Of a stretch of 49,250 nt of DNA, positions 1,902 to 43,512 are shown in pieces. Source of the stretch: Acidobacteriota bacterium. GTDB lineage: Bacteria; Acidobacteriota; Vicinamibacteria; Vicinamibacterales; SCN-69-37. The notes under the pieces were generated by a model. It worked only from the letters and a program-made list of their open reading frames with translations, was not told the origin of the DNA and ran no database searches. Position 1 is the stretch's first letter; every line of letters begins with the position of its first letter. The stretch covers positions 1 through 49,250 of the forward strand of contig JABMNV010000225.1 in NCBI GenBank assembly GCA_013203475.1. The letters run 5' to 3'. Both the position numbers and the translations under genes were made by a program.

Positions 1902-1933
1902 CCAAGAGCCCCAATGCGAGGTACCATTGAGGG

Positions 1934-3100
1934 ATGCGTGGTGAGTCTGACCCTCCGGCAGACGGGAAACCGACGTTTCGGTCGCTGCCGCTGCCTCAAC
2001 GCGAGATCTCCCTCCTCATTGTCCTCTGTGTTCTCTGCGCCATCACGTTCGGGGCCACGCGTCGGATGGCCAGTTGGTCGCGCGGTCGCCGCGCCGAAGC
2101 CGCAGCAGAGTGGTTCGCTCGAGGAGAAGCGCTCACACAAGCGGGCCAACTCGACGCCGGTATCGCTGCGCTGCGGGAAGCCATGGCTGAAGAGCGACAG
2201 AATCCTATCTACGTGCTTGGACTCGCTCGAAGGCTGACCGAAGCCAAACGCCACGACGAGGCCACCCAGCTTTTACTGCAACTGCGACGAGGCCAGCCCG
2301 ATGACGTGGAGGTCAATTACGGACTCGCTCGTCTGGCCGCACTCAACGGCGACGAAGCCGAGGCAGTCCGGTATTACAACTATGCGATGTACGGACTGGT
2401 GCGCATTGGCGTGGACTACAACCGCCGAGAGATTCGGACTGAGTTGATCAACTTCCTGCTCGATGAAGGTGCCCAGCAGGAAGCCCGCATCGAGTTGGAG
2501 GCCCTCGGGCGGGAATTACCTGACGAGCCTGAGGCGAACTTGCAGGCGGCGCAACTCGCCGACCGTGCAGGAGACACTCGCCGGTCCCTTGAATTTTATG
2601 GACGAACGGCAGCCCTGGACCCGACACACGCGGGCGCGGCGGCAGGAGTTGGCAACGCCGCCTTTGTGTTGCGTGACTTCACCACGGCGTCTCGAGAGAT
2701 GGCCCGCGCGATCAGCCTGGGGGCCGATGCACCGAGACTCGCGACGCGCCTGGAAGTCTCCCAACTGGTTCAAAACAGCGACCCTCTGGCGCCAAGGGTC
2801 GCATCAGCGGTACGGGCCAGACGCCTCCGGGCCGGACTGGTGAACGCGGCCTCTGGTTATGACGCGTGTGTAGCCGAGTCAGACGCCGATCAGGAATCGC
2901 CGGACGCGACGCAGGTCGAGCTTCGGGCTCTCACCCGGGGGCGGCAGTCCTCGCTTCAGGATCCCGACGTGCTTGCACGAGGGGTGACCTTGATTGGCGA
3001 GGTGACGGCTGCGATTCAGGCGCGTTGTCCGACCCGCCTGACCCCTCTTGACCAAGCGTGGCAACTCATCGCCGAACTCCATCCGGGTGGAGACCGATGA
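1934..3100 (+). CDS. membrane-anchored tetratricopeptide repeat protein
   Basis: 388 aa ORF, N-terminal TM segment (ISLLIVLCVLCAITFGA) followed by TPR-like helices; stop overlaps the ClC start (ATGA). Confidence 0.75.
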   Translation: MRGESDPPADGKPTFRSLPLPQREISLLIVLCVLCAITFGATRRMASWSRGRRAEAAAEWFARGEALTQAGQLDAGIAALREAMAEERQNPIYVLGLARRLTEAKRHDEATQLLLQLRRGQPDDVEVNYGLARLAALNGDEAEAVRYYNYAMYGLVRIGVDYNRREIRTELINFLLDEGAQQEARIELEALGRELPDEPEANLQAAQLADRAGDTRRSLEFYGRTAALDPTHAGAAAGVGNAAFVLRDFTTASREMARAISLGADAPRLATRLEVSQLVQNSDPLAPRVASAVRARRLRAGLVNAASGYDACVAESDADQESPDATQVELRALTRGRQSSLQDPDVLARGVTLIGEVTAAIQARCPTRLTPLDQAWQLIAELHPGGDR

Positions 3101-4407
3101 AGGTACCCTGGCGGCAAGAGTGGCGGCTGACCGGCGGCCAGCTTTTCTTCGCGCTCACGGTCGTGATTGGCATTCTGGCCGGACTGGCGGCCGTGCTCTT
3201 CGCACTGACCATCGACGCCGCGCGCGAGGGGTTTTTTGGCATCGCCCCGTCGCCGTGGCGTCGGTTTCTGATTCCGTCGGTCGTCAGCATCTTCACCGGT
3301 ATTCTGCTCGCGAAGTTCTTCAACGACGCGCGCGGCAGCGGCGTACCCCAGACGACGGTCGCCTACCAGTTACGCGATGGTGTGATTTCACCTCGTGTGA
3401 CGATCGGAAAATTTCTCACGGGCGTCCTCTGCATCGGGTCGGGACATTCGATGGGCCGAGAGGGTCCGTCGGTCCAGATTGGCGCGGGCCTGGCCTCGTG
3501 GGCCGGACAGTGGCTGCGCCTGTCACCAAGCCAGATGCGCAACATCGTTCCGGTCGGTGCGTCGGCGGCGCTGGCGGCCGCGTTCAACACACCGATTGCT
3601 GCGGTGTTGTTTTCGCTTGAGGAAGTCATTGGCGACATGAACGCGCCGCTCTTGGGGTCGACCGTCGTCGCCTCAGTTTCGGCCGTGATCGTCGAGCGGT
3701 CGATTCTCGGGAACGAACCGCTATTTCACGTCCCCGGGTACCAAATGGTGCATCCCAGTGAATTGGCGGCATACGCGGCGCTGGGCATCATTGGTGGCGT
3801 GGCGTCGGTCGCTTTCTGCAAGGGGTTGCTCTCCTTGCGCCTGAGGTTTCAAAAACTTCCCGAGACCACGCGGATGTGGCAACCCGCGATGGGCGGACTC
3901 GCCATCGGCCTCATCCTGATCTTCTTTCCTCAAGTGGCCGGGGTCGGCTATCAACACATCGACCAGGCCCTCAACGGCGGCCTGCTGTGGCCGACGATGG
4001 CGATGCTGGGTGTCGTCAAGTTGGGCGCGACGATAATTTCGTATTCGAGCGGAAACGCGGGCGGCATTTTTGCCCCGAGCCTTTATATCGGCGCGATGCT
4101 TGGCGGCACGGTCGGAATACTGGCGCAGTACATTGCGCCGTTTCCGATTGCTGAGCCCGGCGCCTATGCGCTCGTCGGCATGGGCGCGCTGTTCGCTGGC
4201 ATCATCCGCGCGCCGCTGACCTCAGTGTTCATGATTTTCGAGATTACACAGGACTACCAGATTCTGGTGCCGCTGATGGTGGCGAATATGCTGAGCCTGG
4301 CTATTTCCCGTCGCTATCAGCCTGAGCCCATCTACCGGGCGCTGCTCCGACAAGACGGCATCGTCCTCAAATCTGGTGGCACGAACAAGGCGTCGTCGCC
4401 AGCCTAG
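3097..4407 (+). CDS. ClC-family chloride channel / antiporter
   Basis: GSGVPQTTVAYQLRDG, GREGPSVQIGAG and GNAGGIFAPSLYIGAMLGG motifs; start ATG at 3097 overlaps the upstream TGA. Confidence 0.93.
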   Translation: MKVPWRQEWRLTGGQLFFALTVVIGILAGLAAVLFALTIDAAREGFFGIAPSPWRRFLIPSVVSIFTGILLAKFFNDARGSGVPQTTVAYQLRDGVISPRVTIGKFLTGVLCIGSGHSMGREGPSVQIGAGLASWAGQWLRLSPSQMRNIVPVGASAALAAAFNTPIAAVLFSLEEVIGDMNAPLLGSTVVASVSAVIVERSILGNEPLFHVPGYQMVHPSELAAYAALGIIGGVASVAFCKGLLSLRLRFQKLPETTRMWQPAMGGLAIGLILIFFPQVAGVGYQHIDQALNGGLLWPTMAMLGVVKLGATIISYSSGNAGGIFAPSLYIGAMLGGTVGILAQYIAPFPIAEPGAYALVGMGALFAGIIRAPLTSVFMIFEITQDYQILVPLMVANMLSLAISRRYQPEPIYRALLRQDGIVLKSGGTNKASSPA

Positions 4408-4441
4408 GACGCGGGCCTTCTGCGGCTTGGGCTTCTCGGCC

Positions 4442-5737
4442 CTACCGGCTCAGGTACTGCAGCACGACACTCGCCATCGCTTTCATGCCGATGCGCAGGG
4501 CGTCTTCATCGATGTCGAAGTATTCGGTGTGCCACATGGCCGTGATGCCTTTGTCAGGGTTGGCGACGCCGAGGAAGAAGTAGAAGCCGGGAATCTTCTT
4601 CTGATAGAACGCGAAATCTTCTGCCACCATCTGCGCCGGCGGCGACACCAGATTCTCGGCACCCACGGCCGCTTCCAGCGCCGGCAGCGAGGCCGTCACG
4701 AGGGCAGGATTGTTGAACGTGACCGGCGCGGTCTCGACGTATTCGAGCTCAAACGTCGCGCCAGACGCCGAAGTGATGCCCTGCAGTAGCTGGGTCATCT
4801 TGGCCTTCACCGTGCTCGGGCCATCTTCACTCAACGACCGCACCGTCCCGGTCATCGTCACGCTGTCGGCAATGATGTTGAACCGACTGCCACCCGAGAT
4901 GGTGCCGACACTGACCACGGTCGGCTTCTGGGCATCGATTTGACGCGCCGGAATCATCTGCAAGGCTTCGACCACCTGCGCGGCGATTGGCACCGGATCA
5001 ATGCCCGTGTGCGGCATCGCGCCGTGGGTACTCTTGCCAATGATTTTGATCGTGAATCGGTCGGCACTGGCCATGGCACCGCCCGAGTTGTAGCCAATCT
5101 TGCCGACGTGCAGAGTGGGCATGACGTGCAGGCCAAAAATCGCCGCGGGGGTCGGGTTTGTCAGTGGCCAGTCGTCAAGCACTTTCAGTGCTCCTGTGGG
5201 TCCGCCGTCAGGGTCCCCCTCCTCAGCAGGCTGAAATAGAAACACCACGGTGCCAGGCAGATCCACGCGCATTCGGGCAAATATTTCCGCAACACCGAGG
5301 GCCATCGCGGTATGCCCATCATGCCCACACGCGTGTTTCACGTTGGGGACGATGGATTTGTAGGGCACGTCGATTAGTTCCGGCACCGGCAGCGCATCCA
5401 TGTCGGCGCGCACGGCCACCACGGGCCCGGGACGGGCGCCTTTGAGCACCCCGACCACGCCGGTGCCGCCCACACCGGTCCGTACCTCGTCGAATTTCAG
5501 GGCCCGCAACCGATCGGCCACCAGTGCGGCGGTGCGAGTCTCACGAAAGCCGAGTTCCGGATTGCGATGAATGTCGCGGCGGATTTCTATAATGGCGGGA
5601 TGGAGTTCAGTGGCCAGCGCGTCCACGCGGGCACGCAGGTCTTCCGGCGTACGCCCACTCTGCGCCCCTGCCTGAGAGCCGACGACCCCGGCTGTCACCA
5701 GCGTGAGGCCGACAATGAGAATCATCCGTGACTGCAT
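4442..5737 (-). CDS. M20-family amidohydrolase / peptidase (hippurate hydrolase-like), exported
   Basis: [53 protein letters not shown] motifs; N-terminal signal-like sequence. Confidence 0.93.
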
Positions 5738-5743
5738 GGGCTG

Positions 5744-5751
5744 ACTATAAT
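5744..5751. promoter_or_regulatory. overlapping divergent -10 elements (minus TATAGT 5749-5744; plus TATAAT 5746-5751)
   Basis: Sequence ACTATAAT in a 20-bp divergent intergenic gap; each hexamer lies exactly 6 nt from its start codon (5737 minus, 5758 plus). Confidence 0.6.
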
Positions 5752-5757
5752 CGCTCT

Positions 5758-6897
5758 ATGCGACTCTTAGGACTCTTCTTCTGTGTCATCTGTGTCATGG
5801 GCGCGGCCAGCCCGACGGCCCAACAGCCAGACCCGATGGTGGAACGCGCACGACGCCTGCTTCGGGACGTGCCGGTCTTTGATGGTCACAACGACTATCC
5901 ATGGGCCATCCGTGAGAAAGCCAACGGCGATTTGGCGAACCTCGACCTTCGGCAGCCACAGCCAACGATCCACACAGACTTCGCCCGACTCGCCAAAGGC
6001 GGAGTAGGCGCGCAATTCTGGTCGGTCTATGTGCCGGTCGAACTGCAAGGACAGACGGCTGTCACGGCCACGCTCGAGCAAATCGACGTCGTCCACCGCA
6101 TGGTCGCGCGGTATCCCGACAGACTGGAACTGGCGCTGACTGCGGCCGACGTTGAACGCATCCAGAAGGCTGGCAAGATCGCGTCGCTCATCGGCATGGA
6201 GGGCGGCCATTCGATTGACTCGTCGTTGGGGACGCTGCGGATGATGTATCGACTCGGCGCTCGCTACATGACGTTGACGCACAGCCTCAACACCCCCTGG
6301 GCGGACTCCTCGACCGACGTCGCCGTGCACAATGGACTGTCAGCCTTTGGCGAGGACGTGGTCCGCGAGATGAATCGCCTGGGCATGCTCGTGGATCTGA
6401 GTCACGTGTCGCCGGACACCATGGCGGACGCGCTCGGTGTGACATCGGCACCGGTCATTTTTTCTCATTCATCGGCCCGCGCGTTGACCGACGTCCCTCG
6501 TGATGTGCCAGACGCGATCCTGAGGCAGTTGCCAAAAAATGGCGGCGTCGTGATGGTGACCTTCGTGCCGGGGTTCATTTCCCAGGAAGTGGCAGACTTC
6601 AACGCCCTGCCAGCCGAAGCGAGGGTGGGCAAAGAAGCGCCACGGGCCACCATCATCCAGGTGGCCGACCACATCGACCACATCAAGGCCGTCGCGGGCA
6701 TTAACCACATCGGCCTCGGGGGCGACTTTGACGGCATTACCCAGGTCGTGCTGGGACTGGAAGATACGTCCACCTACCCCGACCTGATGGCCGAACTCCT
6801 GCGCCGAGGTTACTCGGATGAAGACGTCAGGAAGATCGCGGGGAAGAACATCCTGCGCGTCCTGAAGAAAGCCGAGGACGTCGCCAGAAAACAGTGA
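5758..6897 (+). CDS. membrane dipeptidase (renal dipeptidase, M19 family)
   Basis: [64 protein letters not shown] motifs; signal peptide if ATG 5758 is used. Confidence 0.93.
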
Positions 6898-6904
6898 GCG
6901 ATGA

Positions 6905-7576
6905 ATGGTTGACTCCAACACGACAGCGGCGAGACATCAGGACACGACTCCTGTGGTGATCGTGGCGCTTGGCGATTCAACGACCGCGGGAACGCCGCAG
7001 TTCAAGTCGCCACTGGAAGCCCCACCCGACGGTGCGGGTCACCGGGAAAGTCAATTCTCGTACTGGTTGATGCGCGCACATCCTGGCTGGACGGTGCTGA
7101 ACCGGGGAGTGAACGGCGAACGCAGCGACGAGATCGCGGCACGATTCGACCGAGACGTCGTGGCCGTCAAGCCGAGCGTGGTCATCATCATCGCAGGCGT
7201 GAACGACGTCTACCAGGGCCGCCCGGCCTCACACGTGACCGCACAGTTGCGCGCGATGTACGACCGTGCGGCTGCGGCAGGCATCCCGGTGGTGGCGGGG
7301 TCGATCGTTCCGTTCAACACCGCCACTGACGAGCAGAACGCCCGCATGCACACGATCAACGCGTGGATCGAGGCAGAGGCAGCCGGCGACACACACATTG
7401 GGTTTGTTGATACCCGATCCGCGACGGCGGCAGCGGATAACGCCGACCGACTTGCCGGGTCGCCGGATGGCCTGCATCCAGACGTCGACGGTTATCGCAA
7501 GATGGCCGACGTCATCAGGACGACGATTGAGGCGGTCCTGGAGTCCTACTGTCCCGAATCTGCGCTGGGGCCGTAG
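6905..7576 (+). CDS. SGNH/GDSL-family hydrolase
   Basis: GDSTTAG block I, NRGVNGE, GVND and DGLHPDVDGY catalytic blocks. Confidence 0.88.
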   Translation: MVDSNTTAARHQDTTPVVIVALGDSTTAGTPQFKSPLEAPPDGAGHRESQFSYWLMRAHPGWTVLNRGVNGERSDEIAARFDRDVVAVKPSVVIIIAGVNDVYQGRPASHVTAQLRAMYDRAAAAGIPVVAGSIVPFNTATDEQNARMHTINAWIEAEAAGDTHIGFVDTRSATAAADNADRLAGSPDGLHPDVDGYRKMADVIRTTIEAVLESYCPESALGP

Positions 7577-7990
7577 AGGTCAGGCACCTTCGATCCGAGT
7601 GCGCGCAGATAGGCCGCCAGTTGACCGCGATGGTGGATGCTGTGATTGTTCGCCAGCCCAAGGAACGAGACAGCGGGCAACTGCATCATCCCGAAGTAGT
7701 CCACGGCCCGCGTCAGATCCTCGGCTGACATCGCCTTGACCGCCGCCAGCGTGGCGGGCAGTTCTCTTTCATAAAACGCCACGACTTCAGCCACGGTCTT
7801 GAACTGAGCCTCGGCGGCTTTCTGTCGTTCCGCGTCGTGCCACATCCCACGCGGACCGCGACTTCGGGTCCGGCTTGTAGTCACGGGTGTCGTCTTTCAC
7901 CGCGGCGATCACTTTGCACGTCGCGGGGAATTCACCCTGCATCAAGTTCACCATCTGATCTGCCAAAAACGTTGCCTGGTCCCCGGTCAT
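7546..7990 (-). pseudogene. DinB-family protein, frameshifted/internally deleted near 7845-7865
   Basis: N-terminal part in one frame ([49 protein letters not shown]), C-terminal part in another (FKTVAEVVAFYERELPATLAAV...NHSIHHRGQLAAYLRALG); the expected middle HIA.SD.WF segment is absent. Confidence 0.75.
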
Positions 7991-8724
7991 TGCTGGTTTC
8001 CTCCTGTGGCAAGACGACGATTCACTTCGGTCCAATTGATCACATTCCAGAACGCCGCCACGTAGTCGGCGCGGCGATTCTGATACGTCAAATAGTAGGC
8101 ATGCTCCCAGACATCCAGGCCAAAGATGGGCTTGCGTCCGTCGGCCAGCGGTGTGTCCTGATTGCCTGAGCTATGAATGACCAGCGTGCCGCTGTCATCG
8201 CTCAACCACGCCCAGCCGCTCCCGAATCGTGACCCGGCGGCTTGGGCGAACTGTTGCTTGAACGTGTCGAAGTCGCCAAAGGCTCCCGTAATCGCCGCGG
8301 CGGCGGCGCCCGTGGGGGCTCCCCCCCCACTGGGCGACATCAACGTCCAGAACTGCGTGTGGTTGTAATGCCCGCCGCCCGAGTTCTGAACGGCCGTGCG
8401 AATGCCCTCTGGCACAGCACCGAGATTGCTCAGCATGTCGTCGAGTGAACGTCCCGCCACTGATGGCTCTTTGGCCAGCGCGGCATTGAGACCATTGACG
8501 TACCCCTGATGATGCCGGTCGTGATGAATAGTCATCGTTTGCGCATCGATATGTGGTTCGAGCGCGGCCACCGGATACGGCAACGGCGGCAGCGTGAACG
8601 GGCCGGTCGCTGCCTGCGGTGGCGCGAACGCCGTCAGCGGCGCGGCGGCGTGGAGTCGGGGACCTGCGACTGCGGCCAGAGCTGCGCCTCCGGCCGTGGA
8701 TAGAAGTTCACGTCGTGTCAGCAT
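7987..8724 (-). CDS. Fe/Mn superoxide dismutase with twin-arginine-like signal
   Basis: [54 protein letters not shown] motifs; N-terminus [21 protein letters not shown]. The longer ORF start (8790) is translation of the tandem repeat. Confidence 0.93.
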
Positions 8725-8743
8725 GGTCAATACTCTAGCACCC

Positions 8744-8803
8744 AGCACGCAGCACGCAGCACGCAGCACGCAGCACGCAGCACGCAGCACGCAGCGCGCA
8801 GCG
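8744..8803. repeat. tandem heptamer repeat (AGCACGC)x7 + AGCGCGC + AGCG
   Basis: Counted directly: seven perfect AGCACGC units from 8744 to 8792, a variant AGCGCGC at 8793-8799, partial AGCG to 8803. Confidence 0.97.
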
Positions 8804-8816
8804 TTAAGATAGTCAC

Positions 8817-9782
8817 GTGCTGGTCAACTGTGTGGCGTACAAAGCGGGGCGGAAGGTCGCTGACATCCCCATCGGAGCCATTCGGGAATATCTGACTGAT
8901 CCGGAGTGTTTTGTCTGGATCGCGTTGATGGACCCGGATTCGACTGAGTTAACCACGCTTCAAACCGAGTTCGACTGGCACGAACTGGCGGTCGAAGACG
9001 CCCACCATGGACATCAGCGCCCTAAGATCGAGGAATACGACGGGTCGTTGTTTGTGGTCCTTCACATGATCGAAGCGCAGGACCGCGAGCTGCGCGTGGG
9101 CGAAGTCGCGTTATTTGTCGGACCGCAATACATCGTCTCGGTGCGGCGCAATGCGGGGCGAGGCTTCGCTGAAGTCAGACGCCGCTGTGAACAGGAACCC
9201 GACCTCTTGCGCCACGGCCCGGGGTACGTGATGTATGAGTTGATGGACACCGTGGTCGATCGCTATTTTCCCTTGATCGATGAACTGACACGCGAGATTG
9301 AAGAAATCGAAGAACGAGTCTTTGCCGGTGAGACCACGCGTGCACAAATTGAGGCCCTGTATACGTATAAACAGCGACTGATGGTGCTCGACCATGCGAT
9401 CGCTCCCTTGCTTGAGGTCACCGCCAGGTTGCACGGGGGACGAGTGCCGCCGATGTGCGCCGGACTCCAAAATTATTTTCGTGATGTCTACGACCATCTG
9501 CACCGGCTGAGGCACGCCACGGAAAACCTCCGCGACATGGTCAACACCGCCCTGTCGGTGACGCTGTCGCTCATCACCTTGCAGGAGAGTCAAGTGACCA
9601 AGCGGCTCGCCGCCTACGCGGCCATTGTCGCGGTACCGACGATGATCGCTGGCGTGTACGGGATGAACTTCAAGCACATGCCGGAACTCGACTCCGTTTA
9701 TGGTTACCCTGTGGCGCTGAGTGTCATGGCAATCATCGACGCGTACCTCGTCTATCGTTTGAGGAAGGCGAAGTGGCTCTAG
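8817..9782 (+). CDS. corA: CorA-family magnesium/divalent cation transporter
   Basis: C-terminal [10 protein letters not shown] (GMN motif) with two TM helices; CorA N-terminal domain; GTG start. Confidence 0.92.
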
Positions 9783-10888
9783 TGGACTCTCACTTTCGCA
9801 AGACGTTCCTGCTGGTGCTGGTCTCCACCGTCACCATCGCTCTGATGGTTCTGCTTTGGACGTTTCTGCTGACCATCGTTGTGGCAGCGATCATGGCGGG
9901 ACTGCTGTATCCCGTCTACGTCTGGCTTGGTGCACGTCTGGGCGGGCGCACGGGATTGGCGGCCGGCCTGACCCTGCTGGCCACCTTTCTCCTCATCATC
10001 GGCCCCCTGCTCGGCATCGTCAGTCTGGTCGTGAGTCAGGCGGTCGCCGTCACCGGAAATATCCGGCCCGTTGTTGAACGATTCGTGTCGGAACCGACCT
10101 ACCTCGACGAGCAACTTCAGCGGCTGCCAGGATACGACTTGCTGGAACCACACCGAGGAGAGATCTTGCGAACGACCGGCGAGATGGTGAAGTCGGCCGG
10201 CAGTTTCCTAGTGTCGTCGTTGTCAAACACCACCAAGGGCACAGTGGCGTTTGTCTTTCACTTCTTCATCGCGCTGTATACGATGTTTTTTTTCCTGATC
10301 GACGGACCAGCACTGCTTGGCGCCGTACTCGATCACATCCCGCTTCAGCGCAACGAGAAACAACTACTGACAGAGCGGTTCATGTCAGTCACGCGCGCCA
10401 CGATCAAGGGCACGATCGTGATCGGCGTGATTCAGGGCGCCATGGCAGGCGTGGCGTTCTGGCTGGTCGGCATTCCCAACGCCGTCTTCTGGACGGTGCT
10501 GATGACGGCCTTGTCTATTCTGCCTCTGATTGGAAGCGCCCTGGTGTGGGTGCCTGCCAGCATTATCCTGTTCGCCACCGGCGCGGTGACTCAAGCCATC
10601 GTGCTGGTGCTGTTCTGCGCACTGATTGTCGGGTCGGTTGACAACGTACTGCGTCCACGCTTGGTGGGACACGACACGAAGATGCACGACTTGATGATCT
10701 TGTTCTCGACCCTGGGCGGCATTCTTGTTTTCGGGCCGATCGGGTTCATCATCGGCCCGGTGCTGGCCGGTCTGTTCGTGACGTCATGGCAGATCTTCGG
10801 CATTGCGTACCATGACCAGCTCGACGACGGCACCCCGAGAATTTTGGATGCCGGCGGCGAGGTGGCAGGATTCGAAGACGGCGACTAG
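9773..10888 (+). CDS. AI-2E/PerM-family transporter
   Basis: Multi-TM protein with GVIQGAMAGVAFWLVGIPNAVFWTVLMTALSILPLIGSALVWVPA and DNVLRPRLVG typical of the family; overlaps the corA stop. Confidence 0.88.
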   Translation: MALVDSHFRKTFLLVLVSTVTIALMVLLWTFLLTIVVAAIMAGLLYPVYVWLGARLGGRTGLAAGLTLLATFLLIIGPLLGIVSLVVSQAVAVTGNIRPVVERFVSEPTYLDEQLQRLPGYDLLEPHRGEILRTTGEMVKSAGSFLVSSLSNTTKGTVAFVFHFFIALYTMFFFLIDGPALLGAVLDHIPLQRNEKQLLTERFMSVTRATIKGTIVIGVIQGAMAGVAFWLVGIPNAVFWTVLMTALSILPLIGSALVWVPASIILFATGAVTQAIVLVLFCALIVGSVDNVLRPRLVGHDTKMHDLMILFSTLGGILVFGPIGFIIGPVLAGLFVTSWQIFGIAYHDQLDDGTPRILDAGGEVAGFEDGD

Positions 10889-12957: not shown

Positions 12958-12997
12958 GGATGGATTCTAGACATTTATCGGCTAGTATCCCACCACC

Positions 12998-13888: not shown

Positions 13889-13904
13889 ACACTACACTGG
13901 GGCC

Positions 13905-20912: not shown

Positions 20913-20945
20913 GTGCTCGGCCTCATTATTGCTTAGGATACTTGT

Positions 20946-24628: not shown

Positions 24629-24632
24629 CGAG

Positions 24633-28353: not shown

Positions 28354-28356
28354 AAG

Positions 28357-30158: not shown

Positions 30159-30174
30159 GGAGTCGGCACATCCC

Positions 30175-31993: not shown

Positions 31994-32031
31994 GACGCTC
32001 CTCCAGCCGCTACTATAACCGCGGACTCCCT

Positions 32032-33168: not shown

Positions 33169-33175
33169 GCACAGG

Positions 33176-33661
33176 ATGGAACACGTAACACAACTGTCGC
33201 TGAGACATTGCCTCGCCGCAGTGGCGTACCGCGGAGGAAAGGTCCTCCGGGATGTGCCGCGCGACTTCAGCCACTTCGCGCTGGACCCCCACGACGAGTC
33301 GTTTCGCACACCGGGTCAACTTCTCAGCCACCTCTGCGACTTGTACGACTGGGCCTTGTGCATGGCGAACGGTGAGTATCGCTGGAAGGACACGCCCCAG
33401 GGGGAATGGCCGGACGACGTGGCGCGGTTTTTTGCTGCGCTTGAACGACTCGACGCCGTGCTGGCGTCGGACGATGGCTTCAAGGGGTCACCGGAACGCA
33501 TCTTCCAGGGACCGATCGCCGACTCACTCACCCATATCGGCCAACTCGCCCTGCTCCGCCGAGCGGCAGGCGCCCCGATCAAGGGCGAAAACTACTATCG
33601 CGCCGAGATCGAAGCCGGCCGGGTCGGCGCGGAGCAGGCGACGCCGATTCGTGAATTCTGA
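33176..33661 (+). CDS. DinB/YfiT-like protein
   Basis: RTPGQLLSHLCDLYDWALCMANGEYRW...DSLTHIGQLALLRRAAGAPIKGENYYRAEI; His residues in DinB-like positions. Confidence 0.7.
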   Translation: MEHVTQLSLRHCLAAVAYRGGKVLRDVPRDFSHFALDPHDESFRTPGQLLSHLCDLYDWALCMANGEYRWKDTPQGEWPDDVARFFAALERLDAVLASDDGFKGSPERIFQGPIADSLTHIGQLALLRRAAGAPIKGENYYRAEIEAGRVGAEQATPIREF

Positions 33662-36073
33662 TCAGTACAACAGATACTTTGCCCTGAGTCGGCGCCAGCG
33701 GGCCTCCGCGCCGCTCCAAGACGAGGCAATCGCTGCCGGATCGTCGCCGGACGTGAGTCGCGCCAGCCCGGACGCGGATCCAAACAGGCGCGTTGCCGAC
33801 TCAATCTCGAACTGCCCCGGAAAGAGCGTCAACAGCGCCGACGCCATCTCCACGCCTACACGTACGGGCCGGACCACATCGCGATCGGTGACCACGACAA
33901 ACACGCCCTGGCAGAGTTCGTTCGCAAACTTGCTCGCCACTGGCGTGAACTGTTCCGGATAGAAGCGCACACCCGGTATCGCCCGCGCGTTGAGCGCGGC
34001 CGCGAGGCGGACCCCATCAATCCACGGCGCACCGATGTGCTCAAACGGCGTATCGGTGCCGCGTCCGACGGAAAGATTCGTGCTCTCGAACGACGCGATG
34101 CCCGTGTAGAGCGTGGCCGCGTACAGGTTCCGCATGTTCGGCGATGGGCCGATCCACATCAGCCCGGTCTCGTCAAACCAGGCGTCGCGACGCCAGTGCC
34201 GCATGGCGACCACGGTCAGGTCCGCGCCGATCTTCTTCTCCGCGTTGAACAGCGACGCCAGTTCCCCAAGCGTCATCCCGTGGCGGGTGGGCATGGCGGG
34301 CAGATACCCGATGAAGCTGACGGCGTCAGGATCCAACGACGGTCCTTCGATCGACACGCCCCCGATCGGGTTCGGTCGGTCCAACACAAAGACCTTGATC
34401 TTGCGCGGCGCGGCCTCCTCCATCACATAGGCCATGGTGGTCATGTAGGTGTAGAAGCGCGCGCCCACATCCTGCAGGTCGATCACGATCGCGTCGAGAC
34501 CGGCAAGCATGTCAGCGGTGGGGCGGCGGGTCTCGCCATAGAGCGAGTAAATCGGCAGGCCTGTCGTCTCGTCGCGTGCCGAAGGGACAGTCGCGTCGAG
34601 TACGCCACGGATGCCGTGTTCGGGACTAAAGAGCGCGACAAGTGTCACGTCAGGTGCGGCCGCCAGCACATCAATCGTCGGAACGCCGTCGCTGGCGCGC
34701 CCGGTGTGATTGGTGAGCACTCCCACGCGAAGCCCCTTGAGGGCCGAAAAATCTGTCGCGCGTAACACGTCGATACCGGTCTGCACTGGCCGGTACGTCG
34801 GCGCAGGCACCGCCCGCGTCTGCGAATCAAACGTCCTCCGCGTCGCGGGAAAGCCGGTGGCCGGCAACGCGGTGAAGGCCGATGCCGCGATGGTCGCCAC
34901 TCGAGCCCGCACGGGAGTGACGTCTCCTTTGCCGTCGGGGTGCACCCGATTCGACATGAAGACCACGAACACCTGTGTGGCTGGATCCACCCAGATGGAC
35001 GTTCCTGTGAAACCCGTATGTCCGAAGGACCCGGTCGGAAGCAGCTCTCCCCGGTTACTCGAAAATGCCGAGTCGATATCCCAACCAAGTCCACGGACAT
35101 TGCTTTCGTCCACGGGCGTTGAAGGACTGGTCATCCGTGCCACGGTCAGCGGCGAGAGGATGCGCACGCCGTCAAGCTCTCCTCCGCGCAACAGCATGCG
35201 GGCGAAGCGGGCCGTGTCATCCGCCGTGCTGAAGAGTCCTGCGTGACCCGCCACGCCACCCATGCGCCTCGAGGTGGGGTCATGCACCGTCCCTCGGAGC
35301 ATCTCGGCACCAGGGCCGGCACATGGCCAGCCGTACGGCGTGCAGACTTCTGTCGGCGCAATGCGCGCACCCAGGCCGGCTGACGGCTTGAACATCGTGT
35401 CGTGCATTCCGAGCGGATCGAACAGGCGTGACGCGACGAATGCCTCAAACGGCTGTCCACTGACGCGCGCGACGATCTCGGCCAGGAGGAAGAAGCCAAT
35501 GTCGCTGTAGACAAATCGGCTCCCGGGTACCGCGGTCAACACCTCTTCGGTGGCCAACTCGATGCCGGCGTCATAACCCACCCAGGGATCACCCAGATCC
35601 ACGTCAGGCCGCAGACCGGACATGTGCGTCATCAAGTGACGCACGGTCACGCGGCCTTTGCCGTACTTGGCGAAGTCAGGAATGAACGACGCCACGGAAT
35701 CGTTGAGGCGAATCTTGCCGTCCTCCACGAGCATCATGACGGCGGTGGTGGTCGCCATCACCTTGGTCAGTGACGCCATGTCGAAAATGGTGTCGAGCGT
35801 CATCGGCTCCACAGTCGGAACGAGCGCACGATTCCCATAGGCCTTGCGAAAGACGATTGCGTCCCCGCGGCCCACGAGAACTACCGCGCCCGGGAGCTTC
35901 TGATCGGCAATCGCCTCAGCGACCACCTCGTCAATCTTCTCCAACCGCGCGGCGTCGAGGCCGTCGCTGGCAGAGCCAACCGCCTGAGCGAGGGGCACCC
36001 GGTGGGCATGGAGGGCCACGAGGGCCGAAAACAGACACCAAACTAGCCGGCGAGAGGTCGTGGCACGGATCAT
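33662..36073 (-). CDS. fusion: serine beta-lactamase-fold amidase (AmiE/YbbE-like) + DUF1343 exo-beta-N-acetylmuramidase (NamZ-like)
   Basis: N-terminal DMASLTKVMATTTAVMML (SxxK), YSDIGFF, FGHTGFTG; C-terminal LKGLRVGVLTNHTG...LFSPEHGIRG...DLQDVGARFYTYMTTM...VLDRPNPIGG...GMTLGELASLFN...LSVGRGTDTPFEHIGAPW. Confidence 0.9.
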   Translation of the reverse strand: MIRATTSRRLVWCLFSALVALHAHRVPLAQAVGSASDGLDAARLEKIDEVVAEAIADQKLPGAVVLVGRGDAIVFRKAYGNRALVPTVEPMTLDTIFDMASLTKVMATTTAVMMLVEDGKIRLNDSVASFIPDFAKYGKGRVTVRHLMTHMSGLRPDVDLGDPWVGYDAGIELATEEVLTAVPGSRFVYSDIGFFLLAEIVARVSGQPFEAFVASRLFDPLGMHDTMFKPSAGLGARIAPTEVCTPYGWPCAGPGAEMLRGTVHDPTSRRMGGVAGHAGLFSTADDTARFARMLLRGGELDGVRILSPLTVARMTSPSTPVDESNVRGLGWDIDSAFSSNRGELLPTGSFGHTGFTGTSIWVDPATQVFVVFMSNRVHPDGKGDVTPVRARVATIAASAFTALPATGFPATRRTFDSQTRAVPAPTYRPVQTGIDVLRATDFSALKGLRVGVLTNHTGRASDGVPTIDVLAAAPDVTLVALFSPEHGIRGVLDATVPSARDETTGLPIYSLYGETRRPTADMLAGLDAIVIDLQDVGARFYTYMTTMAYVMEEAAPRKIKVFVLDRPNPIGGVSIEGPSLDPDAVSFIGYLPAMPTRHGMTLGELASLFNAEKKIGADLTVVAMRHWRRDAWFDETGLMWIGPSPNMRNLYAATLYTGIASFESTNLSVGRGTDTPFEHIGAPWIDGVRLAAALNARAIPGVRFYPEQFTPVASKFANELCQGVFVVVTDRDVVRPVRVGVEMASALLTLFPGQFEIESATRLFGSASGLARLTSGDDPAAIASSWSGAEARWRRLRAKYLLY

Positions 36074-36112
36074 GAGCGAATGTTATCCTGACGCTGGAGG
36101 TCACGACACACG

Positions 36113-37048
36113 ATGAAAACGTTTTCGATCCGTTCCCGGACGCTGGTTCCCCTCGCGAGCCTGATTGGGCTGGCTGTCATTTTTGCGCCACTGCTGTCTG
36201 CAACGGTTCAGGACGAAAAGACCTTATACCTGTCTGCTCTCGACACAGACGGTCAGTCAGTGACGAATCTGACGTTAGGCGACATCCTCATTCGTGAGGA
36301 CAATCAAGACCGTGAGGTCGTGAGCGTCACGCGAGCGACAGAGCCGATGGCGATCGTCATCCTGGCGGACACGACAAAAGAATCCGGCACTACCGGACTG
36401 ATGTCTCGACAGGACACGATCTCGGGCTCGGCCGAACTGATCCGCGATATTCGGACCGCGCTGACGGGCTTCGTGAACGCGATCTCGGTCGGGAGTCCTG
36501 AATCGACGATGGAGTTGATGGAGTTTGGGCAGGCCGCGATCACGGTGACCCGGATGACGTCTGACGTCGCTGATCTCGAAAAGGGCATCAAGCGACTGTA
36601 TCCAAAGATCGACGCGGCGTCCGTCCTGCTGGAAGGCATCGTGGAGGCAAGCAAGACGCTCGCGAAAGTCAAGACGCCTCGTCGGGTGATCATGATTCTC
36701 AACATCGAACCTGGCGACGAACAAAGCCGGCAGGATCCCAGAAAGATGAGCGACGAGATGGCCAAGGGAGGCGCCTCACTCTGGGCCGTCTCGCTGCAGA
36801 AGGGCACGCTGAAGAATGAACTCCGTGGCGTCGTGCTCGCTGACCTGGCGAAGAACACGGGGGGGCGACGTGAGTTCATTGTCGGCCAGTCGGCACTCAA
36901 GGACGTCTTCGAGGAATATGCCGACAATCTGCTGTCGCAGTACGCGGTCACATACCTGCGTCCCGCGGGCCAGACGCCACGCCTGGTGCAGGTCGGCGTC
37001 ATGCGCCAGGGCCTGAGTCTGCACGCCAACATCTTCGCGCCCAAATAG
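36113..37048 (+). CDS. VWFA-related exported protein with degenerate MIDAS
   Basis: Signal peptide; DTDGQSVTNLTLGDILIREDNQDREVVSV; ADTTKES at the MIDAS position; YADNLLSQYAVTYLRPAGQTPRLVQVGVMRQGLS. Confidence 0.8.
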   Translation: MKTFSIRSRTLVPLASLIGLAVIFAPLLSATVQDEKTLYLSALDTDGQSVTNLTLGDILIREDNQDREVVSVTRATEPMAIVILADTTKESGTTGLMSRQDTISGSAELIRDIRTALTGFVNAISVGSPESTMELMEFGQAAITVTRMTSDVADLEKGIKRLYPKIDAASVLLEGIVEASKTLAKVKTPRRVIMILNIEPGDEQSRQDPRKMSDEMAKGGASLWAVSLQKGTLKNELRGVVLADLAKNTGGRREFIVGQSALKDVFEEYADNLLSQYAVTYLRPAGQTPRLVQVGVMRQGLSLHANIFAPK

Positions 37049-37063
37049 CTGGCGCGACAACAG

Positions 37064-39181
37064 GTGGGTTCGAAGAACAGCGGCACGGCAGCCGGTCTCG
37101 CGGCCATCGCCGTCATTGGCGTCACAGGGTGGTGGTGGTTCACGCGCGGGCCGGTGTACACCCTCGTACAGGACGCCAATCAGAACGTCCTGCTCATCAC
37201 CATCGATACGCTCCGAGGCGACGCCCTGGGCGCGGATGGCGGGCAAGCGGCCACACCGAACCTCGACCGACTGGCGGCCGGGGGCGCGCGCTTCACGTTT
37301 GCGCACGCCCATGCGGTCGTCACTCTTCCTTCTCACACGTCCATCCTGACGGGACAGTTGCCGTACGAACACGGGATGCGCGACAACAGCGGATTCCGCG
37401 TCAAGGACGGCACCGAGACGCTCGCAACCAGGCTCAAACGCCTCGGCTTCGCTACCGGGGCGTTTGTGGGCGGCTTTCCACTCACCAAACGATTCGGACT
37501 CTCGCCGGGCTTTGACATCTACGACGATCAAATCCCTGAGCTCAAGGGCGACGTCACGTTCACGATGCCTGAGCGGCCGGCGAACGAAGTGGTCGAGCGC
37601 GCGCTGGCGTGGATCGACCGAACACCGGACAAATTTTTTGGCTGGGTGCATGTCTTTGATGCGCACTCGCCGTACACGCCACCGGCCGAGTTCGCGGGGC
37701 AGTATGCGCGACCGTACGACGGCGAAGTCGCCTGGGTCGACTCAGCCCTGGGGCCCCTCCTCGACCGGCTCTCCACGCTCTCGCGGCCGACGCTGGTCAT
37801 CGTGACCGCGGACCACGGCGAGAGCCTCGGCGAACACGGCGAAGCCACCCACGGCATGTTCGCCTACGAGGCCACGCTTCACGTGCCGCTCATCATGGCG
37901 ACGGTGACACCAGGTGGGCGCTCGCAGGGCCGCGTCATTACCTCACCGGTCCGGCATATCGACATCGCTCCGACCGTCATGGACGCTGTCGGAGAGCCCG
38001 CCGACCCGGCGTGGTTGGGCGCCTCCCTCCGATCGGTCATCGCGCAAGGCGACGGCCCCGACCGGCCCAGTTATTTTGAGTCGATGACCTACAACCTCGT
38101 GCGCGGCTGGGCACCACTCCGAGGTGTCCTCCAGGACCGCACGAAGTACGTTGACCAGCCAATCCCGGAAGTCTATGACCTGGCGACCGACCCAACCGAA
38201 CTCCGGAATCTGGCCTCGGCAGACACCCAGCGGCTGCAGGTGCTGACCAACCTGCTGGGCACATTCAACACCGCACCACCAGACAGGCCCGGCGCCGAAA
38301 CGGTGGAGGTGTCTGCAGCCTTGCGATCACTTGGCTACGCCTCGGGCAGTGCCCCCGCACGCGACGTCTACACCGAAGCCGACGATCTCAAGAATCTGGT
38401 GGGGATTGATCAGGCATTGCATCGAGCGTCAGAACTGTTCAAGACGGGTCAGACGGCCGACGGCATCGCCCTGTTGCAAAGCGCCATCGAGCGCCGACCG
38501 GATACGGCAGACGCGTACATCTCTCTCGCCTACGCGTTCTGGGAATCTGGCCAGTTGGCGCCTGCGATTCAGACGCTGGAAGACGGACTCAACAGCAGCG
38601 CGCCCGATCGCGACATTCGCATCCGCCTGGGGATCTACCTCGCCGAGAGCGGTACGAACATCCCCAAGGCCATCGCGCTCCTGGAAACGTTGCCCGACAC
38701 GGACGTCGAAGGCTTGAACGGCCTGGGTTTAGCCTACGGTGGGGCCGGTCGATACCAGGACGCCATCGCCACGTTCAAGAAGATCCTGATCCTCGATTCC
38801 ACAAACGGACTCGCCAATCAGAACATTGCGGCGATGCTGATGCAGGAAGCGGAGCGAACGCCCGCACTGCGCGGGACACGACTACGCGAAGCGGAAGGGT
38901 ATGCACGACAGGCCCTCGACAACGACCCGTCGCTCGCCAAAGGGTTCACCACACTGGGCGTCATTCTCGCGCAGACCAATCGTCAGGCAGACGCGATCGA
39001 GAGTTTGAAGCGCGCCGTGCAGCTCGACCCGTCAGAATTCGACGCGCTCTACAACCTTGTGGTCCTTCTGGCCGAATCGGGCCGCATCGACGAGGCGCGG
39101 CCCTACGCCCGCCAGTTCGTCGCGACGGCGACGCCCTCGTTCTACGGCGAGGCCATCGAGCAGCTGCGCAACATTAGATAG
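37064..39181 (+). CDS. membrane-anchored alkaline-phosphatase-superfamily ('sulfatase-like') protein with C-terminal TPRs, paralog 1
   Basis: TM WWWFTRGP; NVLLITIDTLRGDALG, VVTLPSHTSILTG, TADHGESLGEHGE; TPR repeats from about aa 460. GTG start. Confidence 0.9.
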   Translation: MGSKNSGTAAGLAAIAVIGVTGWWWFTRGPVYTLVQDANQNVLLITIDTLRGDALGADGGQAATPNLDRLAAGGARFTFAHAHAVVTLPSHTSILTGQLPYEHGMRDNSGFRVKDGTETLATRLKRLGFATGAFVGGFPLTKRFGLSPGFDIYDDQIPELKGDVTFTMPERPANEVVERALAWIDRTPDKFFGWVHVFDAHSPYTPPAEFAGQYARPYDGEVAWVDSALGPLLDRLSTLSRPTLVIVTADHGESLGEHGEATHGMFAYEATLHVPLIMATVTPGGRSQGRVITSPVRHIDIAPTVMDAVGEPADPAWLGASLRSVIAQGDGPDRPSYFESMTYNLVRGWAPLRGVLQDRTKYVDQPIPEVYDLATDPTELRNLASADTQRLQVLTNLLGTFNTAPPDRPGAETVEVSAALRSLGYASGSAPARDVYTEADDLKNLVGIDQALHRASELFKTGQTADGIALLQSAIERRPDTADAYISLAYAFWESGQLAPAIQTLEDGLNSSAPDRDIRIRLGIYLAESGTNIPKAIALLETLPDTDVEGLNGLGLAYGGAGRYQDAIATFKKILILDSTNGLANQNIAAMLMQEAERTPALRGTRLREAEGYARQALDNDPSLAKGFTTLGVILAQTNRQADAIESLKRAVQLDPSEFDALYNLVVLLAESGRIDEARPYARQFVATATPSFYGEAIEQLRNIR

Positions 39182-39186
39182 GTTCG

Positions 39187-41313
39187 TCAGATCACGCCCG
39201 GTTTCACCTGAAACGTCTTCTGGAGTGTGCCCAAGACCGTCTCGCCCAGGCGAACGGTGGCTCGAATCGTATAGGACCCAGGTTCCAACAGGTCAGTGGA
39301 AAACTCGGCGCCGGCGCGTTGAATGCCGTTCATGTTCTGCGCCACCACTTCCCGCTCGTCGACGGGCTCGGTTTCTCCGGCCCTGGAGATGGTCCACGCC
39401 ACAAAGATGTCTCCTGCCGGAGTGGTCTCTCCAGCTGGATAGAGCTCCATGCTCGCAATCAAGCTCGTCGTCCCGGCCGGCAGCGCCTCGAGTGTGAGCG
39501 GATGGGCCTGGCCGCGTTCATCAACCCAGGCCGCCAGCACATCGCTCGAGACAAACGGGCCGAGTGTCGGCAGGGCGGCGTCGAGCGGAACTTCGATCGA
39601 GCCCAGGTTGCCCTCAGCATCGGCTGCGGCAAACCGAAGACGATAGGCCCCGGAAGCCACGGGCAACACAAACGAGATCGTGAACGGTTGCCCACTGGGC
39701 TGGGCGGGAAGCTCGCGACGGCCGTTGGTGAGCTGGCCGGATCCATCGACAAGGCCGTACATCGTGATCAGGGGACCGTTGATCGAGGCCGGAATCTCGA
39801 CGTCCACCACGACCTCGAGTGCCATCGCACCGCCCGGACGCGTCGAGACATTTTGCGAACGGCGGATCACCGTGCCGAGTTCAATCGGCACACCAAAGTG
39901 CGGAGTCCCGCTTCGGATGGCGCTTGCGAGTTGCTCGTCAATCGTCGGTGGCGCAATTTCCTTCGGGGCTTCGGGCTCGGGAACAACGGCAATGCGATTG
40001 GCCGCCACCGTCACGCCGCGGCGATTCTTCACTTTGGCCTCGACCTCAAACTCCCGGCCTACGGACGTCTCGGGCAGCGCCTGCACACCGAGGCGGTACA
40101 CCGCCGACCCCGCTCGAATGACGCGATCAAAGAACGGGTCGGGGTCACCAATGATGCGGTACAGCTGTCCTCCGGCCATTTCGGTGGCCGTCGCCGCGCC
40201 ATCCAAGAGCAGCTTGCCGTCCTCGCGACGACGTTGGGGCATGCCAAGGTCGGCCTGGACGGTCGCAGAGCCATCAAGGGCCATGACCCGACGCCCCTCG
40301 TCGCCCATGTTCAGGTCCGGCTCCTCCACCATGACGCTAATCCGCACGCCTGCGCGCGCGGCGGCCAACGCCACAGGTTTGAGTGGTGCCACTTCCGCAC
40401 CGACGGCCAGACCGTCGGTGATGACGACCAATTGCTTGAAGCCAGGCGCATCGCTCATGGACTCGATCACGGACGTCAACACCGAGGCCTGCTGAGCCAC
40501 AATCGCCTTGGTGAACGTGGCGGTCCGTCGAGCCTGTCGCACCACTGCCGTGACGCAGTCGTTCTCGCCCGTCAGGACACTGATGTTCTGGCTGTCTACC
40601 AGCGATCGGTCTCCGTTAAAACACTCCATCGCGATCACGTCCCTCAACATGCCCAGGTCACCATGGTCGATCGCGAGTGCCTGCGCCACGCCGACGGCAG
40701 AATCGGGTGTGCCATCATTCCGCCCTCCGGCTGGTTCGCTCGGCGAAAACGACCGCGGGTCCGTCGCACTCCCCACGGCTCGGCTGAGCGCGTCGAGCAC
40801 GACCGGACGGTCGAGCGTCGGATTGACGATGTGGGTACCACTGGACGTGGCAAACCCGATGTAGTCACGTGCCGGCAGACCTTTCACAAATCGTTGAGCC
40901 CCGTGTAACAAGGCACGACCGCGCGTGGGTGACATCGACAGGTCGTCGAGCAGGAACACAAAGACCCGCGGATCAGGCATCGGCACGCTCTCGTTGCTGA
41001 ACACGGGCCGCTCGGGGAAGACACCGTCGGCTGAAGCGGCTGCGGCCGGTGCGGCGAGTTCAGCGGGGCCAAGTTCGACGAAGGACACGATCTTCACCGG
41101 CTGCACCCGGCCGTCAAGCTTGATTTCGAAATCGTCGGCCGTCAGTCCTGGTACTGGACGGCTGTCGCTATCAAGCACCGTCACGTCGATCGTGACCAGA
41201 TCCACTGTGCCTCTAAATGTGGGCCGTTCTTGCTGCTGGGCGCCTTGCTGAGCACCGGAGACGGTCACGGCCAATCCCAGCATCACGCCGAGCACTCTCA
41301 ATAGTCTGTGCAT
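39187..41313 (-). CDS. VWFA-related exported protein, large form
   Basis: QQERPTFRGTVDLVTIDVTVLDSDSRPVPGLTADDFEIKLDGR; FLLDDLSMSPTRG (DLSMS MIDAS); long C-terminal beta-rich region. Confidence 0.88.
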   Translation of the reverse strand: MHRLLRVLGVMLGLAVTVSGAQQGAQQQERPTFRGTVDLVTIDVTVLDSDSRPVPGLTADDFEIKLDGRVQPVKIVSFVELGPAELAAPAAAASADGVFPERPVFSNESVPMPDPRVFVFLLDDLSMSPTRGRALLHGAQRFVKGLPARDYIGFATSSGTHIVNPTLDRPVVLDALSRAVGSATDPRSFSPSEPAGGRNDGTPDSAVGVAQALAIDHGDLGMLRDVIAMECFNGDRSLVDSQNISVLTGENDCVTAVVRQARRTATFTKAIVAQQASVLTSVIESMSDAPGFKQLVVITDGLAVGAEVAPLKPVALAAARAGVRISVMVEEPDLNMGDEGRRVMALDGSATVQADLGMPQRRREDGKLLLDGAATATEMAGGQLYRIIGDPDPFFDRVIRAGSAVYRLGVQALPETSVGREFEVEAKVKNRRGVTVAANRIAVVPEPEAPKEIAPPTIDEQLASAIRSGTPHFGVPIELGTVIRRSQNVSTRPGGAMALEVVVDVEIPASINGPLITMYGLVDGSGQLTNGRRELPAQPSGQPFTISFVLPVASGAYRLRFAAADAEGNLGSIEVPLDAALPTLGPFVSSDVLAAWVDERGQAHPLTLEALPAGTTSLIASMELYPAGETTPAGDIFVAWTISRAGETEPVDEREVVAQNMNGIQRAGAEFSTDLLEPGSYTIRATVRLGETVLGTLQKTFQVKPGVI

Positions 41314-41364
41314 AATCAACTCTCCCACAACCTGACCCAAGGGTCCTCTCGGTATAGTAAGCGC

Positions 41365-43512
41365 ATGGCCAAGAGACGACCAGTCGCCCCCGTCCCACAC
41401 AAGGCGTCCCCGGTCGAGGCGTCTGGCGCTCCTGCATCAGGGCCGAAGCGAATCGTTGCCGCGATCGTTGCCGTGGTCCTGTTGGCTGCCGGAGCGTGGT
41501 GGTGGATGCGAACTCCAATATTTACCCTCGAAGGCAGTGCCGATCGCAATGTGGTGCTGATCACGATCGACACCCTGCGGGCCGACGCCCTGGGCACGTA
41601 CGGCGGCCGTGCGGTCACGCCCAATCTCGATCGACTGGCGGCCCATGGCGCGCGCTTCGACTTTGCGCACGCCCACGCGGTGGTGACACTGCCATCGCAT
41701 ACCTCGATCCTGACCGGACGTTACCCCTATGACCACGGGGTGCGCGACAACACGGGCTACCGACTCGCGCCGGCAACGCCCACGCTCGCGACCTACCTCA
41801 AGGCTCAGGGATTTGCTACCGGCGCCTTTGTGGGCGGCTTCCCTCTCGACCACCGCTTCGGCCTGAATGTCGGCTTCGACACCTACGACGACAGGTTGGA
41901 CGGAGGCGAAGCGTCAGAGCGGGAACGACGTGCCGACGCGGTCGTGTCGTCGACCGTGGACTGGATCACTCAACAATCCGGCAAATGGTTTTCGTGGGTT
42001 CACGTCTACGACCCACACGCGGTGTACGACCCGCCCGACGAATGGAAGACACGCTTTCCGGCCGACCCGTATCTTGGCGAAGTGTCATGGACCGATCAGG
42101 CACTTGGGGTGTTACTCGACCATCTGGCGACGCTGTCTCGTCCCACGTTGGTGATCGTCACCGCCGATCACGGTGAAAGCCTCGGAGAACACGGGGAATT
42201 GACGCATGGCGTTTTTGCCTACGAACCTGTCCTGCGCGTCCCCCTGATTATCGCGCAGGTGGGAGGAGGAGGCGCGCGGCCATCGGGGCGCGTCATTGCG
42301 TCCCCTGCACGACACGTCGATCTGCTGCCGACCATCCTTGAGTCAACCGGCGACGCGATTCCGGTCGGCGCCGGGACGTCGCTGATTCCCGTCATCAATG
42401 CGGGCCGAGGCGACGACCGTCCGTCGTACTTCGAAGCAATGACGGCCACTGTGCAGCGCGGATGGGCGCCCCTGCGCGGCGTGGTTGTCGGTCAGGACAA
42501 ATTTATCGACCTGCCCATCAGCGAGTTGTATGACTTGGCGAACGACGCGGGAGAGTCGAGGAACATCGTGGGTGTCGAACCGACTCGCGCAGACGTGCTG
42601 CTGAACACGCTGCGCGGCTTCAACGTGGCGCCCCCGGGCCAACCGCAGCAGGAATCAGCGGAGAACATCGAGCGCATGCGTTCACTGGGCTACATCAGCG
42701 GCGGGTCCGCGACCGTGCGGGAACGGTATACGGACGCTGACGACCCGAAGCAGTTGATCGAACTCGACCAGATGCTGACCCGCGCCGGAGAGGCCCAGCG
42801 CGCAGGCCAGGCCGATGTCGCCATCACGCTCTACAAGAGCGTCATCGAGAAGCGCCCGGACACCGAAGACGCCTATCGCAAGCTCGCGCTGGTGTACTGG
42901 CGTGCGAGCCAACCGGCTGACGCCATCGCCACGCTTGAAGCGGCGCTCAACATTGGCGTCACGCAAAGCGAAGTTCGGATCAAACTCGCGCAGTACCTGG
43001 CTGAATCCGGGCAGCCCAAGCGGGCGATCGAACTCCTTGAAGAAATGACCGGGGACGATCCGGACGCGCTCATCGGTCTGGGCAACGCGTATCTCGCTGC
43101 CGGCCGCCCGAGCGACGCACTCGACACATTCACCCATCTCCTCGAAGTCGATCCATCCAATGGTCTCGCCTACGAAAACATCGGCATCACCCACCTGCGC
43201 AATGAGACACCGGGTCTGGCAGAATCGGCCCTGCGTCGCGCCGTGGCACTTGACCCTGGCTTGTCGGGTGCCTGGACGGCGCTCGGGGTGCTCCTCACCC
43301 AAACGAGTCGCGAGGCCGAGGGTATCGCGGCATGGCAGCAAGCCGTGAACGTCGATTCGACGGCCTTTGACGCGCTCTTCAATCTGACGATCAATCTGGG
43401 ACGCCTGGGACGTGCCGACGAGGCCCGTCAGTATGGCGAGCGATACCTGGCCACTGCCCCGGCCCAACTTTCTCAGGATGCGGAGACCATTCGTCGCCTT
43501 CTGGGCCGATAG
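41365..43512 (+). CDS. membrane-anchored alkaline-phosphatase-superfamily ('sulfatase-like') protein with C-terminal TPRs, paralog 2
   Basis: TM AGAWWWMRTPIFTL; NVVLITIDTLRADALGTYGG, VVTLPSHTSILTG, TADHGESLGEHGE; TPRs. Confidence 0.92.
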   Translation: MAKRRPVAPVPHKASPVEASGAPASGPKRIVAAIVAVVLLAAGAWWWMRTPIFTLEGSADRNVVLITIDTLRADALGTYGGRAVTPNLDRLAAHGARFDFAHAHAVVTLPSHTSILTGRYPYDHGVRDNTGYRLAPATPTLATYLKAQGFATGAFVGGFPLDHRFGLNVGFDTYDDRLDGGEASERERRADAVVSSTVDWITQQSGKWFSWVHVYDPHAVYDPPDEWKTRFPADPYLGEVSWTDQALGVLLDHLATLSRPTLVIVTADHGESLGEHGELTHGVFAYEPVLRVPLIIAQVGGGGARPSGRVIASPARHVDLLPTILESTGDAIPVGAGTSLIPVINAGRGDDRPSYFEAMTATVQRGWAPLRGVVVGQDKFIDLPISELYDLANDAGESRNIVGVEPTRADVLLNTLRGFNVAPPGQPQQESAENIERMRSLGYISGGSATVRERYTDADDPKQLIELDQMLTRAGEAQRAGQADVAITLYKSVIEKRPDTEDAYRKLALVYWRASQPADAIATLEAALNIGVTQSEVRIKLAQYLAESGQPKRAIELLEEMTGDDPDALIGLGNAYLAAGRPSDALDTFTHLLEVDPSNGLAYENIGITHLRNETPGLAESALRRAVALDPGLSGAWTALGVLLTQTSREAEGIAAWQQAVNVDSTAFDALFNLTINLGRLGRADEARQYGERYLATAPAQLSQDAETIRRLLGR

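Follow-up and report, generated by a model that had tools for sequence, protein, structure and literature searches.

A -10-like box beside start codons in a Vicinamibacteria genome: predicted leaderless genes and candidate boxes shared by divergent pairs

Start-adjacent boxes in the window

In the window, by which we mean the whole 49,250-nt stretch of acidobacterial DNA analysed, a TAnnnT hexamer recurs immediately ahead of start codons. This raises the question of whether such hexamers are -10 promoter elements that would give rise to leaderless mRNAs and, if so, how heavily the lineage uses them. The original prediction listed nine boxes, each exactly 6 nt before a start codon, and a tenth box (TAGAGT) with a 7-nt spacer ahead of the SOD gene (8724, minus strand). 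All hexamers and distances were correct on re-reading and are collected in Table 1. The accompanying claim that these genes lack a Shine-Dalgarno (SD) sequence holds overall, the exceptions being SOD, for which the mixture model described below favours an SD (0.67 versus 0.25 for a -10 box), and the gene at 41365, which is ambiguous. The further claim that all are probable first genes of transcription units is less secure. The genes at 1934 and 13905 closely trail co-directional genes, by 32 and 16 nt respectively, so first-in-unit status is not certain for all nine, and the box ahead of 1934 is possibly an internal promoter.

With about 106 candidate starts and a chance rate of 0.54%, 0.57 boxes at 6 nt would be expected in the window, and nine are seen (Poisson p ~1e-8). 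Seven of the nine are the earliest start codons possible, as the frame contains no other between them and the upstream stop, and in four the upstream in-frame stop is itself part of the box, as TAA (CorA and NamZ) or TAG (the minus-strand M1 gene and VWFA). The weakest case is 41365, which has one further in-frame start 19 codons upstream and for which the model divides its start assignment among several codons. By a strict count of boxes, the window might be an outlier, or a contaminating contig, with respect to this trait (9/38 genes versus 30/425 in the rest, Fisher p=0.002). The model posterior does not suggest this (0.27 versus 0.21, permutation p=0.13), and the reading was rejected.

Table 1. 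Boxes and associated genes in the window, with -10-class posteriors from the mixture model
Feature	Position	Strand	Details
TACCAT	1922..1927	+	6 nt before ATG 1934 (TPR protein); posterior 0.92
M20 peptidase gene	4442..5737	-	predicted leaderless; signal peptide; TATAGT 5744-5749, 6 nt to ATG 5737
M19 membrane dipeptidase gene	5758..6897	+	predicted leaderless; TATAAT 5746-5751, 6 nt to ATG
Symmetric core ACTATAAT common to M19/M20	5744..5751	both	posteriors 0.94/0.99
Divergent SOD/CorA promoter region (putative)	8725..8816	both	TAGAGT (-), 7 nt to SOD ATG 8724
TAAGAT	8805-8810	+	6 nt before CorA GTG 8817
TAGAAT	12964..12969	-	6 nt before ATG 12957 (M1-like peptidase)
TACACT	13893..13898	+	6 nt before ATG 13905 (M1/LTA4H-type aminopeptidase, lipobox N-terminus)
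TAGGAT	20934..20939	+	6 nt before ATG 20946 (VWA-domain protein, VWFA); posterior 0.84
TAACAT	36080..36085	-	6 nt before ATG 36073 (beta-lactamase-NamZ fusion); posterior 0.74
TATAGT	41353..41358	+	6 nt before ATG 41365 (sulfatase-TPR protein); leaderless posterior only 0.19

Exported products are frequent among the predicted leaderless genes of the window (M20, M19, the two M1 proteins, VWA and the NamZ fusion). The NamZ fusion is a single 803-aa protein (33662-36073, minus strand) in which a beta-lactamase-family domain is joined to a NamZ exo-muramidase that is complete, with both Pfam domains NamZ_N and NamZ_C, and it has a hydrophobic signal-like N-terminus. The space between the SOD and CorA -10 boxes is filled by a tandem array of AGCACGC in 9.4 copies (8737-8802).

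Enrichment, motif and conservation of the box

We scanned for TAnnnT by distance from the start codon in a sample of 1.02 Mb, comprising the window and 80 further stretches of the 3.58-Mb genome (264 contigs, 95.8% complete; a search of the assembly found no 16S). By RpoB the genome falls in Acidobacteriota, the phylum of all eleven best matches (64-72%). Of the 80 stretches, twenty were drawn from contigs picked for carrying a pattern match, and the other 60 were nearly all picked regardless of the pattern. Genes were called with a simple dicodon caller of our own that uses no upstream signal, giving 891 genes, and the background was provided by 50 dinucleotide-preserving shuffles of the same upstream sequences. 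The scan yielded a sharp peak at 6-7 nt. At candidate start codons of genes that probably begin a transcription unit, their upstream neighbour being divergent or far away, 36 boxes were seen at 6 nt versus 7.2±2.0 in shuffles (z=14.5) and 31 at 7 nt versus 7.4±2.7 (z=8.9). Counts in the same gene set were 22 at 9 nt and 16 at 10 nt, and were near background outside approximately 6-10 nt. The predicted spacing of exactly 6 nt therefore describes the nine window genes, and not the genome in general, where the peak spans 6-7 nt and tails off towards 10. TAnnnT has no peak at 6-7 nt ahead of internal or out-of-frame start codons in the sample. The box at 6 nt is present at 2.3% of operon-internal genes versus 8-12% in other contexts, and at 7.1% of genes (30/425) in the 60 stretches picked nearly all regardless of the pattern.

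A three-class mixture model (-10, SD or neither), fitted by EM with the -10 motif initialised at TATAAT, converged on T.79 A.89 n A.55 A.57 T.98, a sigma-70-type -10 box. The middle bases of the box thus match the -10 consensus, though the scan did not require them. Spacers are non-periodic and favour 6 nt (.36), followed by 7 (.18), 9 (.14), 8 (.11) and 10 (.07). The -10 class takes about 21% of genes, a share that depends on the model (strict TAnnnT at 6 nt covers only 7%), and the SD class (GGAGGA) about 51%. Adding the -10 class raises the log-likelihood by 157. From the same starting point, shuffled upstream sequences drift to an unrelated motif with a gain of 26, and internal in-frame start codons drift to a codon-periodic motif with a gain of 120. 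Codon structure lends the internal starts a periodic signal of their own, which makes them poorly suited as a control for the absolute gain, and this comparison was restricted to the shape of the motif and spacers. The share of the -10 class varies with context, from 33% among divergent genes through 21% among co-directional genes that have 60 nt or more of space upstream to 10% among operon-internal genes. The predicted heavy reliance of this lineage on leaderless transcription is supported by the 6-7 nt peak and by the share of genes with a sigma-70 -10 motif.

Of the two classical sigma-70 elements, the TATAAT -10 consensus was found and TTGACA at 16-18 nt was not. No enrichment of a -35 TTGACA was detected at any spacing in 87 high-confidence cases, which yielded no -35 consensus, and a conserved -35 at these promoters was rejected as a feature; only the -10 box is informative.

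The box is also found in relatives, for which we sampled a congener (G038, 400 kb), a member of another family of the order (G029, 400 kb) and a member of another order (G004, 320 kb). The congener has the same box with a -10 share of 27%, G029 has a similar but weaker box with spacers of 6-7 nt, and the -10 motif recovered from G004 is weak. Class membership tends to be retained, since 8 of 12 genes in our -10 class have -10-class orthologues in G038, compared with 12 of 59 other genes (p=0.003). Orthologues of the M19 gene have TAnnnT 5-7 nt before a compatible start in 9 of 29 relatives, and at exactly 6 nt in eight of these 29, where the shuffled rate predicts about 0.5. The boxes at 6 nt, in orthologues of different families, read TATAAT, TAGTCT, TAAGAT, TACAAT, TAACAT and TATCCT.

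From the motif, spacing, context and conservation computed here, we infer that the boxes are very probably -10 elements of housekeeping-sigma promoters, giving leaderless genes that would make up about one fifth of all genes, beside the SD genes. RNA polymerase would bind at the box, and transcription would begin at the start codon itself, on its first base or a few nucleotides away. The resulting mRNA would have no 5' UTR, and its 5'-terminal AUG or GUG would be bound by a ribosome carrying initiator tRNA, as in the leaderless route of translation. The arrangement would chiefly serve the first genes of transcription units. Boxes at 8-10 nt, which are common in the data, may give leaders of 1-4 nt rather than none.

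Two other explanations apply to the boxes as a whole. They might have arisen by chance, or as a side effect of start regions that, being AT-rich and unstructured, aid ordinary translation from a 5' UTR. Start regions are AT-richer than coding sequence in many bacteria, and TAnnnT fixes only three bases; the raw genome-wide count of TAnnnTN6ATG is 280 versus 249 in the control, a comparison that is nearly uninformative because most matches are not gene starts. Such an origin is nonetheless extremely improbable given 36 boxes where dinucleotide shuffles give 7, an excess limited to approximately 6-10 nt, and middle bases that follow the -10 consensus unasked. The depletion at genes inside operons, which must be translated but can do without a promoter of their own, argues in the same direction. 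It is also very improbable that the -10 elements are genuine while translation begins further downstream on mRNAs with ordinary leaders. The coding-potential caller did sometimes favour later starts (13995, 41473 and 36019), but homologues align from residue 1-2 (CorA), 8-10 (the LTA4H-type M1 protein, 13905) and 1-3 (M19), and signal peptides or a lipobox begin at several of the proposed N-termini. Start codons at box-bearing candidates (ATG 26, GTG 9, TTG 1, with the box at 6 nt) moreover resemble true starts and not random candidates.

Relation to known leaderless systems

Leaderless -10 elements at the starts of genes are thus the favoured reading, and systems of this kind have been described. 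Zheng et al. (2011) predicted leaderless genes in three of three Acidobacteria genomes, with a mean of 13.3% and a range of 9.7-19.4 (PMC3160421, Table 2), so the kind of system is already known. The present genome belongs to the same phylum and has a comparable TA-like signal, located about 12 nt ahead of the start; it differs in being a MAG from the Vicinamibacteria, and its share, obtained by a different method, equals or slightly exceeds the upper end of that range. A 2024 survey reported 41% SD usage in Vicinamibacteria (PMC10783764), which is compatible with a large non-SD share.

In Deinococcus-Thermus, an ORF-adjacent -10 box lies approximately 6-7 bp upstream of nearly one third of D. 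radiodurans genes (PMC12340547). Both systems place TANNNT 6-7 nt before the start, beside a second, GGAG-type class of ribosome-binding site (PMC12340547; PMC3160421). The genome studied here is from another phylum, with a share of about 21% rather than one third and central bases nearer to TATAAT, and our evidence is drawn from sequence. M. tuberculosis and Streptomyces (PMC3898074 and others) are similar in having TANNNT right before the ORF, a high-GC genome and mixed SD and leaderless usage; transcription start sites (TSSs) have been mapped there, in contrast to the statistics presented here.

Leaderless expression has so far mostly been studied in Actinobacteria and Deinococcus, and genome-wide statistics would extend it to a large soil phylum, Acidobacteriota, for which there are little experimental transcription data so far; our literature search found no dRNA-seq start-site maps of acidobacteria. 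The order of box, 6-7 nt and start may also provide a practical rule by which the start codons annotated in acidobacterial MAGs could be corrected.

Candidate boxes shared by divergent genes

What was least expected is that a single -10 box appears, repeatedly, to be shared by a pair of back-to-back leaderless genes. The divergent M20 and M19 genes are separated by a 20-nt gap that reads GGGCTG-ACTATAAT-CGCTCT and, with the two start codons, forms a 26-bp site (5735-5760). The core ACTATAAT gives TATAAT on the M19 strand and TATAGT on the M20 strand, so that -10 elements on both strands overlap, with 6 nt to an ATG on either side. The TSS distance would be 21 nt, as implied by the start codons only. 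No -35 element was found at the site. M20-M19 was rejected as a conserved gene pair, as M20 was not found upstream of M19 in the relatives examined.

Similar sites recur elsewhere. The 20-nt form, CATN6ANTATANTN6ATG, has 16 sites in 193 genomes of the class versus 1 for the reversed control, and outside the class 24 versus 11. Across the class, a 17-nt form, CATN5TANNNTAN5ATG, has approximately 60 sites versus 20 in the control. These counts are not all independent because related genomes have some sites in common. Some matches, though not all of them, have two long frames. Long ORFs lie on both sides, for example, at L205, where fumarate hydratase is paired with a 228-aa frame, and at L088, where a NagZ-like protein is paired with a GHMP-kinase-like one (these last two proteins named from sequence by eye). 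One 17-nt-form site is kept in five of seven genomes of the genus, with both reading frames kept in four; at this palindromic site (L276-L280, position 1501), a gene for a 100-aa protein diverges from one for a carboxypeptidase-regulatory-like protein. A different arrangement occurs at lexA (named by eye; L034:9263-9275), which is predicted to be leaderless and whose box overlaps the start codon of a divergent sugar-kinase-like gene. Its gap is 11 nt, and the arrangement is conserved in G038 (G038:C11:69936-69948), and hence in two species.

Both leaderless genes of some divergent pairs would probably be fired by one quasi-palindromic -10 element that can be read on either strand, with RNA polymerase holding one orientation at a time. 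In such pairs the 17- or 20-nt intergenic region contains the shared box alone; in the variant seen at lexA, the box overlaps the start codon of the opposite gene. We judge the chances to be even that back-to-back leaderless pairs driven by a single palindromic -10 element recur in this acidobacterial class as an architecture under selection. If so, further promoter contacts would fall inside the coding sequence of the partner, and polymerase would serve only one gene of the pair per firing, making the two mutually exclusive.

It is less likely, although a real prospect, that the M20/M19 box is used by one gene only and that its symmetry is incidental. The consensus TATAAT is itself partly symmetric (TATA), and in another genome (G062) the symmetric box is retained beside a plus-side frame of just 44 aa (L208), so a box can be symmetric with no partner gene. 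Against use by a single gene stand the distance of exactly 6 nt between the box and each ATG and the signal peptides at both starts. The 16-fold excess of the combined pattern over the reversed control in the class, the several sites with two long ORFs and the one site conserved in the genus likewise point to use by both genes.

Joint use of one box would have a parallel in the bidirectional promoters described by Warman, Grainger and co-workers, in which a symmetric -10 is shared and the preferred TSS distance is 18, with 10 and 23 also represented (PMC12825309). Here too one -10 is readable on both strands, with implied TSS distances of 18 and 21 nt, and the 17-nt form has the geometry of the common 18-nt E. 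coli bidirectional promoters (PMC12825309). Unlike in those promoters, both predicted TSSs coincide with start codons, and therefore the whole intergenic region would consist of the shared -10 box and two spacers. The pairs would unite two known phenomena in one very compact promoter. We found no description, in open-licence papers, of one -10 box shared by two back-to-back leaderless genes.

Two further observations concern individual sites. The 100-aa protein at the conserved 17-nt site is itself conserved in the genus, matches no Pfam family and has a CPCC motif near its N-terminus. Outside the class, one genus from another family of the phylum repeatedly has a shared-box site of the form CATNNNNTCACTATACTGNNNNNATG, in genomes G278, G312, G320, G349, G438, G473 and G543.
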